From positions 1 through 64,000 of the forward strand of contig NZ_MRCM01000014.1 of the NCBI RefSeq assembly GCF_002303885.1: 64,000 nucleotides of DNA, written 5' to 3'. The stretch is from Flavobacterium sp. ACN2 (lineage in GTDB: Bacteria; Bacteroidota; Bacteroidia; Flavobacteriales; Flavobacteriaceae). Made by a program: the position numbers and the translations under genes. Position 1 is the stretch's first letter. Every line of letters starts with the position of its first letter. Positions 25,414-31,707 of the stretch are shown piece by piece. Under the pieces are notes generated by a model. The model ran no database searches, was not told the origin of the DNA, and saw only the letters and a program-made list of their open reading frames with translations.

Positions 25414-26502
25414 ATGAAAATAGCCATTCTTGGTACTAGAGGAATCCCTAACAATTATGGCGGATTTGAGCAATTTGCAGAATGTTTTGCAGTGTATTTA
25501 GCGCAGCAAAAACATGAAGTTTATGTATATAATTCACATAATCATGTTTTTCAAGAAAAACAGTATATGGGAGTACATATTATTCATCAATATGATCCCG
25601 AAGATAAAATGGGTTCTGCAGGACAATTTATTTATGATTTGAATTGTATTCTAGATTCAAGAAAAAGGAATTTTGATATTATCTTGCAATTAGGATACAC
25701 AAGCAGTTCTATTTGGTCTTTTCTTTTCCCTAAAAAATCGACTATTATTACCAATATGGATGGATTGGAATGGAAGAGAACAAAATATTCTAAAACCACC
25801 CAAAAGTTTTTAAAATTTGCAGAACAAAAAGCAGTGAAAAGCAGCAATTATCTGATTGCCGATTCACTTGGAATTAAACAATATTTGCAAGAGAAATACA
25901 ATGTAGAAGCAACTTACATTGCGTATGGAGCTGAGCCGTTCCTTAAACAAAATGAAGAATTACTTTCAATCTATAATGTAGAAAAAAACAACTACAATCT
26001 ATTAATCGCTCGCTTTGAACCTGAGAATAATATCGAAGTGATTTTAGACGGAATTGTAGATAGTAAAGATGATAAGGTTGTATTGGTTGTAGGAAACAGT
26101 AACAATGGTTTTGGAAATTATCTTAAAAATAAATTTAGTAATTATCAAAATATACGTTTTACAGGCGGAATTTATAATAAAGAACATTTAGATAATTTGA
26201 GATATTTTTCTAATCTCTATTTTCATGGGCATTCAGTAGGAGGGACAAATCCGTCTTTGCTGGAAGCGATGGCAACAAAAGCATTAATTGTCGCACATAA
26301 CAACGAGTTTAACCGTGCTATTTTACAAGAAAATGCATTTTACTTCTCGGATGCAGCAGATGTTAAGAGTCTCATAGAAACGGTAAAAAGAGAAGATCAT
26401 GATCAAATGGTTCAGGATAACTTCGATATTATAATTCAAGAATTTAATTGGAATAAAATAAATGAATCGTACCTCAGATTATTTGAAAAAAGTCTTCAGT
26501 AA
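25414..26502 (+). CDS. DUF1972/rhamnosyltransferase-type glycosyltransferase
   Basis: A 362-residue GT-B glycosyltransferase whose N-terminus, KIAILGTRGIPNNYGGFEQF, is the diagnostic DUF1972 start. NMDGLEWKRTKYSKTTQKFL, YIAYGAEP and FHGHSVGGTNPSLLEAMATK complete the family pattern (GT4 type). These enzymes are often annotated as rhamnosyltransferases, but the sugar here is unknown. It begins a new unit after the oxygenase and overlaps the next gene by 41 bases, so the two are probably translationally coupled. Confidence 0.87.
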   Translation: MKIAILGTRGIPNNYGGFEQFAECFAVYLAQQKHEVYVYNSHNHVFQEKQYMGVHIIHQYDPEDKMGSAGQFIYDLNCILDSRKRNFDIILQLGYTSSSIWSFLFPKKSTIITNMDGLEWKRTKYSKTTQKFLKFAEQKAVKSSNYLIADSLGIKQYLQEKYNVEATYIAYGAEPFLKQNEELLSIYNVEKNNYNLLIARFEPENNIEVILDGIVDSKDDKVVLVVGNSNNGFGNYLKNKFSNYQNIRFTGGIYNKEHLDNLRYFSNLYFHGHSVGGTNPSLLEAMATKALIVAHNNEFNRAILQENAFYFSDAADVKSLIETVKREDHDQMVQDNFDIIIQEFNWNKINESYLRLFEKSLQ

Positions 26503-27784
26503 AATTGATGAATTATGGCAGAATAAAACATTGCTCATTTTTCTTTTAGCCGCAATGTTGATTGCTCTTCCATTGAAACATTCAATAGGAAGTTTAACCT
26601 GTATTGTTTTTTTATTGGTTTCTTTAGTCAAATCAAAAAAAGCAGATTTTTCAATTCCGATGTTTTTAGTATTTCCAATTCTATTGTATGGTTTAATGCT
26701 TTTATCTCTTATTTGGACTATAGAAAGCAGGCAAACAATTAAAGGGTTACAAAAAGAAGTTTTATTTTTATTAATTCCTCTAGCATTTTGCAGCTTGCCA
26801 AAAATAAATCGAGATGATGTAAATAAGGTTTTCAGTTGGTATAGTTTTACAATGGTAGGTTTTACGGTTTTCTATATTTTAAAGGCAATTGTAAGATTTA
26901 TAAATTCAGGAAATAAAGAAGTCTTTTTCTACCATGAACTCGTTACTTTAGAATTGAATGCTATATATATGGCTGTTTTTGTTTCATTGGCCATGTTTTT
27001 CTTCCTAGCTAAAAAAGAAAAGGCAATTATCGATAAAATAGCATTTACGATCCTTATTGTTTTTATTTTTTTATTATCATCGAAGAATATTATCATAGTC
27101 GATTTAATAATGATAATAATATATTACTCGTTTTTTTCTGATGTTTCTAGAAAAACGAAGAAAGCGATATTGTTGGCAGTCATTATATTATCTGTGAGTT
27201 CTATACTTTTTATTAAACCCGTTAGAGATCGATTTATGATTGAATTTGAAACTGTATTTGTTGATGGATCTTTGAATGAAACTACAGCAAAAAATCAAGG
27301 GCCAATTTATAATATTAGTCTAAAACAAGCTTGGAACCAAGATCAATTTCAGCAAAATGACTTTTTTCCAGGAACAGCTTTTCGACTTTTTCAGATTAGG
27401 ATTTTTAAAGAAATGCTTGAGGAAAAGAATATCTTTTTCACAGGATTTGGATTAGATGCTTCTCAAAATAAAATAAAAGAAAAAATAAAAGAACATAATT
27501 TATACCCAAATTATGGCGAGTTTAATTTCCATAATGAATATGTTCAAATATTTTCAGAATTAGGAATATTTGGCTTTTTGACAGTCTTAATTATGTTGTT
27601 TATCACCATCAGAAAAGGAATTGCCACCAAAGATTTTGTACATATTGCTTTCGCGGTAACAATGATAGTCTTATTTTTGACCGAATCTTTTTTGAGTCGA
27701 CAAAGAGGAATAATTTTCTTTATAATTTTTTACTGTATGCTTAATTTGGTAAACGATTATAATGAACAGAAAATATTGAAATGA
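26462..27784 (+). CDS. O-antigen ligase/polymerase family membrane protein
   Basis: A 440-residue polytopic protein with about ten membrane helices and a periplasmic loop near residues 270-360. [20 protein letters not shown] and [20 protein letters not shown] give the G-x-G and HN-x-(Y/F)-x-Q signature of the WaaL/Wzy fold. It is more canonical for a ligase than the 22122 gene. The chosen ATG overlaps the previous gene by 41 bases; a later start would cut into the first helix. The next gene overlaps its stop by ATGA, again suggesting coupling. Confidence 0.8.
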
Positions 27785-28764
27785 AAAGAATACTTATTAC
27801 AGGAGCGGCAGGATTTTTAGGATCGCATTTATGTGACAGATTTATCAAAGAAGGTTATTTTGTAATCGGAATGGATAATCTGATTACGGGAGATCTAAAA
27901 AATATTGAACATTTATTCAAATTAGAAAACTTTGAATTTTATCATCATGATATTACAAAGTTTGTTCATGTTCCAGGAGATTTAGACTATATATTGCATT
28001 TTGCTTCGCCGGCAAGTCCGATTGATTATTTAAAAATCCCGATTCAGACTTTGAAAGTAGGATCTTTAGGAACGCATAATCTACTTGGATTAGCGAGAGT
28101 AAAAAAGGCTAGAATTTTGATTGCATCAACATCAGAAGTTTACGGAGATCCTTTGGTACATCCGCAAACAGAAGAATATTATGGAAACGTAAATACAATT
28201 GGTCCACGCGGTGTTTATGACGAGGCAAAACGTTTTCAGGAATCTATCACAATGGCGTACCATACTTTTCATGGCGTAGAAACCAGAATCGTTCGTATTT
28301 TTAATACTTACGGACCAAGAATGCGATTAAATGACGGACGTGTAATTCCTGCTTTTATCGGACAAGCACTTCGCGGAGAAGATTTAACCATTTTTGGAGA
28401 CGGTATGCAGACTCGTTCTTTCTGCTACGTAGACGATCAGGTTGAAGGTATATTCAGATTATTACATTCTGATTATGTATATCCAGTAAATATTGGAAAC
28501 CCAGATGAGATTACGATTAAAGATTTTGCAGAAGAGATCATTAAATTAACAGGAACGAACCAAAAGGTAGTCTATCATCCGTTACCAATAAATGATCCTT
28601 TACAGCGTCAGCCAGACACGACAAAAGCAAAAGAATTGTTAGGTTGGGAAGCAAAAGTAAACCGTGCAGAGGGAATGAAAATTACCTATGAGTATTTCAA
28701 ATCATTATCTCCTGAAGAACTTGCAAAAGAAGAACATAAAGATTTTTCAAGCTACATTAAATAA
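27781..28764 (+). CDS. UDP-glucuronate decarboxylase (UDP-xylose synthase)
   Basis: A 327-residue extended SDR enzyme. The NAD-binding motif GAAGFLGSH is at residues 8-16, [19 protein letters not shown] is the UXS hallmark, and [15 protein letters not shown] is followed by GVYDEAKR with the catalytic Tyr-x3-Lys. [19 protein letters not shown] and the terminal LGWEAKV region also match. It would convert UDP-glucuronate to UDP-xylose, so xylose or a derivative is likely in the polymer. Length is normal for a soluble UXS. The start overlaps the previous stop as ATGA. The UDP-glucose dehydrogenase that makes its substrate is not in this window. Confidence 0.92.
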
Positions 28765-28793
28765 CATTCAACTTTGAAAGACATTCAATTCTA

Positions 28794-29561
28794 ATGAACG
28801 ATTTAGTATCTATTTTAACTCCAACATATAATACTGAAAAGTTCATTAGATCAACAATAGAATCAGCTCAAAACCAAACCTATACAAATTGGGAAATGAT
28901 TTTGGTTGATGATGCTTCTACAGATAATACGGTTGCTATAATTGAAGAATTTGTAAAAAAAGACAGTCGAATAAAGCTTTTCAAACTACCAGAAAATCGA
29001 GGAAATGGTTTTGCCAGAAACGCCGCTTTAGAAAAAGCCACAGGAAAATATATTGCCTATTTAGACGCTGATGATTTATGGTTTCCTGAGAAATTAGAAA
29101 AACAGATTCAGTTTTTAAAAGCAAATAATTTACACTTTACTTTCAGCTTTTACGATTCTATTGATGAGGATGGAAATAATTTGAATAGAAAAGTAGAATC
29201 ACCAAATCCGTTAACTTATAAACAATTGTTTTTCTGCAATTATGTAGGCAATTTGACTGCTATTTATGACGCGGATTATTTTGGGAAAATTATCTTGGAG
29301 ACGTCGCAAAAAAGACAAGATTGGAGAATATGGCTTACGATTTTAAAACAAATTAAAATAGCAAAACCAGTTCCAGAATCTTTGGCTTTTTACAGAATTA
29401 GAAAAGATTCTGTTTCCTCTTCAAAATTTAAATTGATTAAACATAATTTTGGTGTTTACAGAGAATTTCACGGATATAATTTTGTGTTTTCTATTTTATT
29501 GATGATAAGGTTTTTGTTTACTCAATTGATAATCAAATCAAAATATATAAAGAAGATTTAA
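28794..29561 (+). CDS. glycosyltransferase family 2
   Basis: A 255-residue GT-A transferase. The order is VSILTPTYNTEKFIRSTIES, then VDDASTDNTVAIIEEF (first Asp motif), and AYLDADDLWFPEKLEKQI with the metal-binding D-x-D. WRIWLTILKQIKIAKPV follows and the C-terminus is partly hydrophobic (FVFSILLMIRFLFTQLI). It resembles the short capsular/LPS family-2 transferases. The donor sugar is unknown. It is the last gene of the plus-strand unit before the palindrome array. Confidence 0.88.
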   Translation: MNDLVSILTPTYNTEKFIRSTIESAQNQTYTNWEMILVDDASTDNTVAIIEEFVKKDSRIKLFKLPENRGNGFARNAALEKATGKYIAYLDADDLWFPEKLEKQIQFLKANNLHFTFSFYDSIDEDGNNLNRKVESPNPLTYKQLFFCNYVGNLTAIYDADYFGKIILETSQKRQDWRIWLTILKQIKIAKPVPESLAFYRIRKDSVSSSKFKLIKHNFGVYREFHGYNFVFSILLMIRFLFTQLIIKSKYIKKI

Positions 29562-29566
29562 AATTC

Positions 29567-29844
29567 AACTTGAAGTCGCAAATAGCGACTTCAAGTTTCA
29601 AGGTCACAAATTGTGACCTTGAAGAATTTCGCTTAGAATTGGAGGTCGCAATTTGCGACCTCCAATTTTTTTAAATAATACGTTTCGAATTTTAAGGTCG
29701 CAATTTGCGACCTTAAAGATTTTAGTTTAGAATTGGAGATCACAATTTGTGACTTCCAATTTTTTCAAACCGTAATATAAATGACAAACTTGAGGTCGCA
29801 AATTGTGACATCAAGTTTCTAAGGTCACAATTTGTGATCTTAAA
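29567..29844. repeat. array of seven palindromes with GGTCRCAA-N-TTGYGACC core
   Basis: Seven hairpin units fill this spacer: 29567-29597, 29597-29623, 29637-29667, 29691-29717, 29731-29761, 29787-29817 and 29819-29844. Each has a core of GGTC(A/G)CAA, a short centre, and TTG(C/T)GACC, or a near form. The flanking arms vary between units (AACTTGA, TTCAA, AATTGGA, TTTAA) but still pair within each unit, so the pairing is kept while the sequence changes. The third unit runs into seven T residues and could act as a terminator for the GT2 gene. The same palindrome occurs inside the adjacent ORF6N frame at 30126-30156. Confidence 0.9.
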
Positions 29845-29847
29845 GAA

Positions 29848-30354
29848 TTATTTTTTATAGCCAATCTTTACTCTTTCAGATTCATCTTCTTTCTTTTCAG
29901 TTAATTCATCTAAATAAGAAAATACCAATTCAATGTTTTTATCGTGATTTTCTAACTTCTTCTGAATCTGAGTATCCAAAAGCATTTGTCTCACTTTTGT
30001 GAAAATACGCATGATTTGTATATTGGTTTGAATGGCTTTGTCGCTTTTTAAGATGCTTGAAAGCATTAAAATTCCATGTTCTGTAAAAACAAAAGGCAGA
30101 TATTTTTGACATTTACCTCTTCCTTTCTCTAAGGTCACAATTTGTGACCTTAGAGAATCATATTCTATTTTAGTAAGTTCAAACATAAAATCTTCCGGAA
30201 ATCAGGATAAATTTCTTTTAACAGATTGTTTTAGAACTTTAGTTTCTATTTCATAAAGCAAAGCCAAATCCAGATCAAGCATCACTTTTTGACCGCGGAT
30301 AAAATATATTTTATTTGAAATTGTTTCTTCAGAAAGAAGAGATTGATCTTCCAT
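29848..30354 (-). pseudogene. ORF6N-domain protein gene with in-frame stop
   Basis: Read from the ATG at 30354 the frame gives MEDQSLLSEETISNKIYFIR, then GQKVMLDLDLALLYEIETKV and LKQSVKRNLS. A TGA follows at 30202-30204 (codon 51), and the frame then continues without shift as FPEDFMFELTKIEYDSLRSQ. The canonical ORF6N sequence here is RN-(I/L)-x-RFPEDFMFELT, so the TGA replaces an Arg codon. The part after the stop keeps a possible internal ATG start at 30186 and encodes YLPFVFTEHGILMLSSILKS plus a helical tail, 112 residues in all. ORF6N is related to the KilA-N/Bro DNA-binding domains of phages and mobile elements. The frame contains one copy of the neighbouring palindrome, which encodes LRSQIVTLE. 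Confidence 0.85.
30126..30156. repeat. 31-bp perfect palindrome inside the ORF6N frame
   Basis: Fifteen-base arms (TCTCTAAGGTCACAA and its exact complement) surround a single central T. It has the same core as the seven-unit array at 29567-29844 and encodes part of SLRSQIVTLEK. Confidence 0.9.
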
Positions 30355-30396
30355 AAGTTTTTAATTAGAAAACAAATGTAAGATTTTATTTATTTT

Positions 30397-31707
30397 TTAT
30401 AAATAAGATTTAAATTGTTTTAGTTTCCCGCGATTGGTTCTTTCTAAAACTGTTTTTCTGGTGAAAGTGAAGATTAGATTTGGCTCGAGATACAAATCAA
30501 TTGCTTCTTTTATTTTTTGAATTTGTTCTGAAACTAATTCATTTTCAGAAATATATTCAATTTCAAAAGTGTTTAATTTAGTTTGTTTGATAATGAATTC
30601 TTTCACGTTTCCATCATCTTCAATAATGCTTTTGGTTACATAATAAAAGGTCAAACCTGGAGATTTTTTACCACTTGGCAAAACGGCAACATCATTAGTT
30701 CTTCCAATTAATTTTTTAAGAATTGGTTTTTGAGGTGTACTTTTTTCATCCAAAATTCCGATGTCTCCAATTTCATATCGAATGAAAGGATTTGCTTTGT
30801 TGTATAATGAAGTAATTACAATTTTCCCTTCTGTTCCATGTGGAACAGGATTATTGTTTTCATCCAAAATTTCGACAAAAAGGGTTTCAGCATTAACTTG
30901 CCATTCTCCTTTTGGATTTTCAAAAGCAATCAAATCCAATTCAGACGCGCCATATTCACTGATAATCGGAATGCCAAATTGTTTTTCCAATAACTTTTTA
31001 TCGGATTCAAAAAGCATTTCGGAAGTTACAAAACAAGCTTTTAAAGTTGGAGAAATATCTTTTAAAACAATATTTTTATTTTCTAAATATTTGGCAAACA
31101 AAACAATAGAACTGGTATATCCGTTGAGGTAATCGAATTTTTTGGTTTTGAATTTTTGTAGAAATTTTTCCAACACTTCATCAGACAAATCAAAAACGGG
31201 AAAACGATAGCGATGGCTCAAAAAATCTTTGAAACGTTCTTTTTGATATCCAATAAAATCCATTGGAATTCCGTAAAAACGTGCCTGATACGAATGGTTA
31301 AAATCAATTCCAAACCAGCCAAAGCGCATAATATTGGAAGCCCAAGTTAAAGCATGTGAATATTTATCTTTAGCAAAAACAAAAGGAGTTCCGCTTGAAC
31401 CAGATGTTTTGTTGAGGTAAATAGATTTTTTAGAATAGCCTTTTGAAAGCCTTTCTTCCAGCGGTTTTTGTAGATTTTTTTTGTTTAAAATTGGAAGATT
31501 TTCCCAATTTTGTGCGGTTGTATTTCCTGCTAACTCTCTGTAAAAAGGGTTGTTTTTTAAATGAAAATCAACAATTTCTGCTTTTTTGTTTTCAAGAAAC
31601 GAAGCAAATTCTTCTTCAGAAAAATGAACAATTTTATCCAATTCGGTTTTGGCTTTCTTTATAGGAAAACCATTTAATTGGAGCGAAATATCAAAAAGGC
31701 GAATCAT
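30397..31707 (-). CDS. CapK/phenylacetate-CoA ligase-like adenylating enzyme
   Basis: A 436-residue member of the ANL superfamily in the branch annotated as phenylacetate-CoA ligase or CapK capsule protein. LNKTSGSSGTPFVFAKDKYS is the ATP/AMP loop, SEYGASELDLIAFE the A5-type motif, and KANPFIRYEIGDIGILDE precedes the C-terminal domain with LIGRTNDVAVLPSGKK. Such proteins occur in many surface-polysaccharide loci, where they may activate an acyl group for glycan modification. The role is inferred from context. It runs opposite to the cluster, from its own TATTTTTG element, and shares a divergent promoter region with purD. Confidence 0.85.
   Translation of the reverse strand: MIRLFDISLQLNGFPIKKAKTELDKIVHFSEEEFASFLENKKAEIVDFHLKNNPFYRELAGNTTAQNWENLPILNKKNLQKPLEERLSKGYSKKSIYLNKTSGSSGTPFVFAKDKYSHALTWASNIMRFGWFGIDFNHSYQARFYGIPMDFIGYQKERFKDFLSHRYRFPVFDLSDEVLEKFLQKFKTKKFDYLNGYTSSIVLFAKYLENKNIVLKDISPTLKACFVTSEMLFESDKKLLEKQFGIPIISEYGASELDLIAFENPKGEWQVNAETLFVEILDENNNPVPHGTEGKIVITSLYNKANPFIRYEIGDIGILDEKSTPQKPILKKLIGRTNDVAVLPSGKKSPGLTFYYVTKSIIEDDGNVKEFIIKQTKLNTFEIEYISENELVSEQIQKIKEAIDLYLEPNLIFTFTRKTVLERTNRGKLKQFKSYL

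Follow-up and report, generated by a model that had tools for sequence, protein, structure and literature searches.

Covariation of ORF6N proteins with a palindrome inside their own genes suggests a self-encoded binding site, with arrays of differently coded sites nearby

ORF6N genes contain a palindrome that is conserved as DNA, and the variable base pairs of this palindrome follow particular residues of the protein encoded around it, residues that are placed on the recognition helix and in the wing of its DNA-binding domain. Judged from this covariation, ORF6N very probably binds the dyad in its own gene. Taken as a whole, the comparisons reported here are probably best explained by a gene that holds the binding site of its own product, is controlled by that product, and has beside it an array of sites with other codes. 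The ORF6N protein is of the winged helix-turn-helix type and belongs to the Bro network of phage antirepressors, which in the available excerpt of a published description comprises KilA-N, Bro-N, ORF6N, ANT, and other domains (PMC10111431). If our interpretation is true, it would predict the DNA target of a widespread yet little-understood class of phage and bacterial regulators, provide a residue-to-base code for them, and explain the look of the well-conserved ORF6N motif. A description of the in-gene ORF6N dyad and its arrays was not found in the CC-licensed PubMed Central literature, and the excerpt of PMC10111431 makes no mention of in-gene binding sites of this kind or of arrays.

The window locus

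The window, the 64,000-nucleotide stretch of Flavobacterium sp. ACN2 DNA analysed here, carries the only ORF6N match of its genome at E ≤ 0.001. In the whole-genome search this gene matched PF10543 with 110.2 bits over positions 1 to 86 of 86, with one TGA inside, and both halves of the interrupted frame exceed the curated cut-off of that family. Intact relatives are present in related genomes. Because the window gene is interrupted, its sites may now be without a resident ligand. The features of the locus are listed below, the code of a unit being the bases at bp 4/10/11 of the palindrome.

29848 to 30354, minus strand: ORF6N gene (PF10543), in-frame TGA at codon 51 (30202 to 30204), last stop at codon 169
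30214 to 30243, minus strand: recognition helix of the helix-turn-helix, codons 38 to 47; K39, V40, and Q43 are alignment residues 40, 41, and 44
30125 to 30157, minus strand: perfect in-gene palindrome (centre 30141), proposed self-operator; 16-bp arms, code A/A/T, codons for DSLRSQIVTLEK
30100 to 30123, minus strand: wing loop, codons 78 to 85, directly after the palindrome; codons 82 to 85 are alignment residues 82 to 85, placed in the window by alignment
29567 to 29597, no strand: array unit 1, centre 29582; code G/G/T, LS-type arms, 13/14 pairs
29597 to 29623, no strand: array unit 2, centre 29610; code A/A/C, LL-type arms, 13/14 pairs
29637 to 29667, no strand: array unit 3, centre 29652; code G/G/G, W-type arms, 14/14 pairs
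29691 to 29717, no strand: array unit 4, centre 29704; code G/A/T, LL-type arms, 13/14 pairs
29731 to 29761, no strand: array unit 5, centre 29746; code A/G/G, W-type arms, 12/14 pairs
29787 to 29817, no strand: array unit 6, centre 29802; halves unlike, with G and A at bp 4 and arms G/T, 12/14 pairs
29818 to 29846, no strand: array unit 7, centre 29831; code A/A/T, the same as the in-gene code, 11/14 pairs

With up to three mismatches allowed, the core GGTCRCAANTTGYGACC was matched at eight window sites between 29574 and 30149, compared with 0.26 expected and a maximum of two per shuffle in 100 shuffles. The initial annotation, made from this DNA alone, had described seven spacer palindromes and a perfect eighth copy among the coding codons of ORF6N, and all eight are indeed present, the last in the minus-strand codons for DSLRSQIVTLEK. 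Its length had been given as 31 bp and is 33 bp, two 16-bp arms round one base, with 14 of 14 pairs and 16 of 16 when extended. Pairing of the arms within every unit, as also described, is complete in the array for unit 3 alone; units 5 to 7 miss two or three pairs, and the two halves of unit 6 differ. The seven array units lie between a GT2 gene (ending at 29561) and the 3′ end of the opposite-strand ORF6N gene (ending at 29848), where they are flanked by convergent genes and occupy no promoter position. In the 5.4-Mb genome, six sites match the core with at most one mismatch and all six are inside the window locus, so that the genome-wide scatter which would have severed the palindrome from ORF6N is not seen.

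Around the ORF6N locus lie genes of glycosyltransferase type and others of polysaccharide type (25414 to 31707, partly judged by eye), and similar surroundings are apparent by eye in the 3′ flanks of some relatives (L078, L081, and L096). Sixteen Rfam matches in the window at E values up to 1, all under their gathering scores and mostly to microRNA families, were set aside as artefacts of the palindromes.

PHROG matches of ORF6N relatives were mostly to anti-repressor families (to E 1e-27), in keeping with the inclusion of ORF6N in the Bro network, and a search for PF09669 (pRha) found three places, all of them ORF6N genes already in our set. An AlphaFold2 model of an intact relative, L062 (mean pLDDT 82, 51 sequences), matched KilA-N proteins of phages when compared with viral models by Foldseek (best E 4e-6) and gave no Foldseek match among PDB folds at E ≤ 0.001. 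Weak likenesses to PDB folds comprised MerR-like, Dachshund/Ski, RacA, and APSES chains (Z 4.6 to 6.5); comparison with the APSES/KilA-N fold of Mbp1 (1bm8) gave Z 4.8 over 84 aligned residues at an rmsd of 3.5, a score that other folds equal. No solved structure of a sequence relative of ORF6N was found, the best match (E 0.063) being taken as chance. All three ORF6N relatives submitted to PADLOC matched PDC-S05, which is a candidate label (best E 1e-71, 2e-63, and 9e-134), and because relatives match this candidate defence family, a role for ORF6N in conflict with mobile elements is conceivable.

The dyad across ORF6N genes

We surveyed 199 genomes of the genus, using the reversed core pattern as a control. 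The initial annotation had proposed looking for the core next to ORF6N genes in related Flavobacterium genomes. In the survey, the exact core occurs in 75 of the 199 genomes and the reversed control in one, and 119 of the 199 have an ORF6N match. Thirty places and 100 further regions were read among about 150 listed places; one of these regions, L150, had been picked for its core matches, and another, L151, is the same place as L022. Because loci L001 to L020 and those of the genome-contig scan were selected by means of the core, prevalence is quoted solely from the profile-found loci, L021 to L194.

The ORF6N motif region was aligned in 156 sequences, of which 152 have the motif column and 128 remain after identical or cut stretches are dropped. 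In 69 of these regions every one of the 14 positions pairs about a common point; 127 regions reach 10 pairs or better, and the lone outlier, L019, is a shifted register of the palindrome. Among the profile-found rows, at least 10 of 14 pairs form in 148 of 152 unique sequences and all 14 in 65 of 152, compared with 2 of 152 that reach 10 pairs at random places in the same frames with equal freedom of centre. The possibility that the in-gene copy is a chance codon pattern absent from relatives, which had been raised at the outset, is thus contradicted. In the frames of L152 to L194, after the removal of eight rows that lack the motif column and of a single edge row, positions elsewhere pair at a mean of about 3.3 to 4.4 of 14, and some frames hold an isolated second dyad of up to 12 pairs, or of 14 in one Butyrivibrio frame. 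A motif column reading IRGQK, an unplanned negative control, pairs at just 0 to 4 of 14 positions. Beyond Flavobacterium, further classes of the same phylum have the in-gene dyad, as do Treponema (13/14) and Sulfuricurvum (11) plasmids; it is weaker in Haliovirga (9/14) and Legionella oakridgensis (8/14), and its register is shifted in Legionella fallonii, Segatella, and Butyrivibrio.

Codon usage at the motif is atypical of these genes. In an analysis of 172 unique rows, reduced to 148 by dereplication at 90%, the motif arginine is encoded by AGG in 89 of 148 rows, compared with 11% of arginine codons elsewhere in the frames. A serine codon covaries with the codon three on, TCA being combined with GTG (Val) in 64 rows and TCG with GCG (Ala) in 45, while TCA-GCG occurs in none and TCG-GTG in one (Fisher P 3e-30, a guide only since the genes are related); GCG makes up 10% of alanine codons elsewhere in these frames. 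Double amino-acid changes that preserve the palindrome are also found, for example F..G (TTC/GGA), C..G, and T..S (L002). The palindrome centre is displaced by two bases in 20 of the 253 aligned rows; the palindrome is there translated in a different frame, most often giving VV[AT]NCDHL or LV[AT]NCDRF.

The core was also scanned for in bacterial genome contigs (at least 119 stretches). Among the matches listed, 104 of 135 core places fall in an ORF6N domain or no more than 1 kb from one; the remaining 31 are in stretches without ORF6N, and none is more than 1 kb off in an ORF6N-bearing stretch. In viral contigs (L314 to L433) there are at least 120 core places, 115 of them without an ORF6N domain in the stretch examined, and these cores often lie between an A run and a T run in the manner of a two-way terminator (by eye, e.g., L343, L351, and L370). 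Many resemble terminator hairpins by eye, and the viral-contig cores were set aside as evidence. In L204, L201, L205, and L215, a single ORF6N gene holds two or more tandem in-frame palindromes, sometimes of differing codes, and a plasmid of Parabacteroides distasonis (L155, 816 to 2549) carries three tandem ORF6N genes, each with an in-gene dyad and with at least two codes among them.

Residues, bases, and allele cassettes

Every protein column with enough letters was compared with each variable base pair of the dyad, the palindrome-coded columns being left out. Of 293 aligned rows, 258 were unique, 253 had at least 6 of 8 inner pairs, and the 247 with at least 10 of 14 pairs were used, made up of 127 genus rows and 120 others (13 rows are gapped at the helix). 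Numbering follows L031, residues 44 and 41 of which are residues 43 and 40 in the window protein. Base pair 4 is tracked most closely by residues 44 and 41, with MI/H values of 0.95 and 0.90 in genus rows (next column, 0.39) and 0.76 and 0.66 in non-genus rows (next column, 0.18). The same two residues lead at bp 5, yet there other genus columns reach 0.68. Base pair 7 is tracked by residue 40, also in the recognition helix, and the outer base pairs are tracked by the wing: bp 8 by residue 85, bp 10 by residues 84 and 82, and bp 11 by residue 83 and residue 79 or 82. In the L062 model, the numbering of which is also that of the window protein, residues 40, 41, and 44 are on helix 38-47 of the helix-turn-helix, and the palindrome-coded stretch lies between two wing strands, its loop being of low confidence.

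The correspondence at bp 4 takes a simple form. Where residue 44 is Gln, bp 4 is A:T (55/55 genus rows, 51/54 others); Glu44 accompanies G:C (41/42 and 38/40), Arg44 accompanies C:G (12/14 and 8/10, the remainder being mismatched pairs), and Lys44 goes with T:A at bp 5 together with C:G at bp 4 (14/14 and 4/4). Pairing of glutamine with adenine, of glutamate with cytosine, and of arginine or lysine with guanine are textbook recognition-helix contacts. The in-gene site of the window has A:T at bp 4, as expected for Gln at alignment residue 44. Register-shifted rows obey the code in 19 of 20 cases, the exception being L250, and the bp 4 rule is also broken by two R41-E44 rows.

As a guard against relatedness, we compared disjoint pairs of genes with similar letters in the remaining columns. 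Among such pairs, those that differ at bp 4 also differ at residue 44 in 79 of 80 cases, and those that agree at bp 4 do so in 4 of 94 (69 of 70 and 4 of 83 at a stricter identity limit), and residue 84 likewise differs in 65 of 69 pairs where bp 10 differs and in 12 of 95 where it agrees. Residue 45 follows bp 4 more weakly than does residue 44 (57/80 versus 29/94). Since neighbouring residues follow bp 4 less, linkage within one cassette is insufficient to account for the correspondence, and the matched pairs together with the weaker neighbours appear to answer the objections of cassette linkage and row kinship largely, although not wholly. The covariation of helix and wing with the palindrome, inside and outside the genus, lends strong support to the suggestion of the initial annotation that ORF6N-type proteins bind such sites.

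Comparison of alleles shows predicted specificity and site changing together, alleles at one locus differing centrally and keeping their ends. In 317 pairs with C-termini at least 90% identical and different codes, identity is 0.86 in the N-terminal part, 0.73 in the helix, 0.51 in the wing, and 0.94 in the C-terminal part; the corresponding values in 105 pairs with similarly matched C-termini and the same code are 85, 91, 87, and 94%. The 27 genes with an L062-like C-terminus carry seven site codes, and 232 of 247 in-gene sites are symmetric in code. Because helix, site, and wing span about 150 bp, the centre can vary with the ends kept, and specificity and site would therefore move jointly.

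Arrays and possible functions

Core palindromes outside the ORF6N gene are found by a lax criterion in 48 of 152 profile-found rows (94 units) and by a stricter one (12/14 pairs) at 33 of 169 loci. They are close to the gene, 61 of 62 downstream units lying within 240 bp of the frame end; on the upstream side, 28 of 32 are no more than 380 bp from the centre of the in-gene palindrome. Halves are unlike in 32 of the 94 external units, given which many of these units may be decaying. There are 20 loci, including that of the window, with 3′ arrays of two or more units, comprising 64 units, of which 44 are symmetric. Among these 44, no code is repeated within any of the 20 arrays (5.7 repeats expected, P 0.0004; 5.2 and P 0.0008 against shuffles in position bins; 3.1 and P 0.014 against shuffles in arm classes), although the P values are optimistic because arrays share ancestry. 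A preference for units matching the resident code was considered and rejected, there being no excess over chance: the resident code is borne by 4 of 62 symmetric external units (6.4 expected at random) and is present in just 5 of 20 arrays, the window's included (4.8 expected), and the array is therefore no bank of self-operators. The window array reads, from the gene outward, AAT, hybrid, AGG, GAT, GGG, AAC, and GGT, and of the seven codes carried by the 27 related alleles, five are represented in it.

As read from their predicted codes, then, arrays are shown to be sets of nonredundant sites, mostly of codes other than the resident's. That the units are mostly of foreign specificity was absent from the readings first proposed, and it raises the question why a locus should keep sites for a series of allele specificities, one apiece, regardless of the resident's own. 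It is possible that the nonredundancy is neutral, identical neighbours deleting each other; a tentative suggestion is that the array lets other alleles act on the locus or be titrated by it.

In the account that we favour, the dyad of about 29 to 33 bp in the wing-coding segment would be ORF6N's own binding site, the recognition helix (residues 40, 41, and 44) would read bp 7 and bp 4-5, and the wing after the palindrome (residues 79 to 85) would read bp 8-11. Bound ORF6N would block transcription inside its own gene and so exert negative self-control, as LacI does at O3, and other ORF6N alleles, past or incoming, could bind the 3′ array and thereby control the locus or be titrated by it. We put the chances of self-repression by such a roadblock at about even. 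PMC3711431 describes LacI bound at O3 as a transcriptional roadblock, a precedent for self-regulation by a DNA-binding protein that blocks transcription from within its own gene region, and by analogy ORF6N, whose dyad lies inside the protein's own gene, may do the same. LacI, however, represents one operator and one protein, whereas the ORF6N dyad lies within the codons of the DNA-binding domain itself, occurs in 148 of 152 profile-found sequences, and covaries with helix and wing.

Binding could be real and serve another purpose, either exchange of specificity cassettes by homing-like recombination or nucleation of a protein-DNA complex of the parS-ParB type, and we regard this as unlikely. 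The parS site inside spo0J is a palindromic ParB site within the gene of its own ligand, and parS is largely invariant. The ORF6N dyad resembles it in position and differs in that site and predicted protein specificity vary together between alleles; a ParB domain was not detected by Pfam (E ≤ 0.001) in the two ORF6N halves, the GT2 protein, or the next gene. Cassette exchange would fit the 317 pairs of alleles that keep their N- and C-terminal parts while the centre varies, and the array units with unlike halves (32/94) suggest exchange at the core; moreover, the excerpt of PMC10111431 describes the Bro network as domain-swapping and as having a likeness to homing endonucleases. However, neither half of the window protein has a Pfam match to a nuclease or a recombinase, and the two halves of in-gene sites nearly always agree (232/247).

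A role for the palindrome in RNA, as a hairpin in the mRNA or in an array transcript that affects stability, termination, or antisense pairing, is very improbable. The inverted repeats are perfect, two array units have terminator-like scores (0.3 expected), and the immunity RNA of P4 is located within a Bro gene (PMC10111431). Mismatches on the mRNA strand, however, are of the G-U type in 19 cases and of the A-C type in 32, and this lack of a G-U skew speaks against selection for an RNA hairpin; nor would a hairpin predict that a helix residue tracks one base pair.

Still less credible is a palindromic mobile element that entered the gene and spread alongside it, a reading put forward in the initial annotation. 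Rickettsia palindromic elements, REP sequences, and GTAG/CGTC palindromes are short, in some cases lie within reading frames, and are dispersed through the genome. Extra tandem in-frame palindromes in L204, L201, and L205, and copies 5′ of, inside, and 3′ of genes, are what such an element might leave behind, but the window palindromes are confined to one locus, with none of the copies at one mismatch or fewer elsewhere in the genome, the listed core places in bacteria lie largely in or within 1 kb of ORF6N (104/135), and the dyad keeps the same gene position across phyla together with the protein code, which renders a mobile palindrome unnecessary. Hardly any weight can be given to a mutational artefact, in which template switching perfects quasi-palindromes and arrays are the debris of decayed ORF6N genes, because, although the window gene is interrupted and some array units have unlike halves, intact relatives carry the in-gene site and comparable arrays (contradicting the by-product of decay also considered in the initial annotation), no ORF6N remnant is visible by eye in the spacers, and copying of arms fails to predict the identity of residue 44.

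In-gene dyads, on which our preferred reading of ORF6N turns, are general in the family, which had not been foreseen. For KilA-N and Bro-N/DinD genes the result concerns dyads alone, the residue-to-base comparison having covered ORF6N. Among KilA-N genes, 7 of 14 loci (one of them marginal) have the best dyad of their frame at the motif, and two more have 11 of 14 pairs; among Bro-N/DinD-like genes, 18 of 20 loci have at least 11 pairs, two of them marginally. Compared with codon shuffles, 4 of 10 phage genes stand out at P 0.03 or better (EW, Javan279, Royals2015, and Javan97, for which the stretch tested is longer than the annotated gene), P1 kilA reaches P 0.06, and 5 of 10 (Alexphander, Attis, Enceladus, Javan728, and Emek) do not stand out; 6 of 11 named dinD, KilA, or antirepressor genes are not above codon shuffles at P 0.05. 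In Escherichia coli K-12 dinD, the dyad is at codon 64 with 12 of 14 pairs, and 1 of 100 codon shuffles is as good.

We advance with reserve, as a speculation that may well prove too broad, a generalization in which Bro-network regulators (ORF6N, KilA-N, and Bro-N/DinD) would be self-addressed: the apparently conserved protein motifs LRSQ.VTS, NP.FN..EF, and DHF.D..KM would each be the footprint of a dyad read by the encoded protein, specificity and address would move as one cassette, and bacteria would keep around some of these genes nonredundant panels of the addresses of other alleles, a cis-encoded repertoire that would let a polymorphic regulator locus recognise rival alleles. If true, this suggests that the targets of KilA-N, Bro-N, and DinD proteins could be predicted from their own genes. 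The KilA-N and Bro-N/DinD dyad loci are L437 to L470, L471 (3761 to 4585), and L472 to L481. On a Treponema plasmid (L158, 1 to 4351), ORF6N is clustered with genes for a DNA methyltransferase, a restriction specificity subunit, and a Fic protein.
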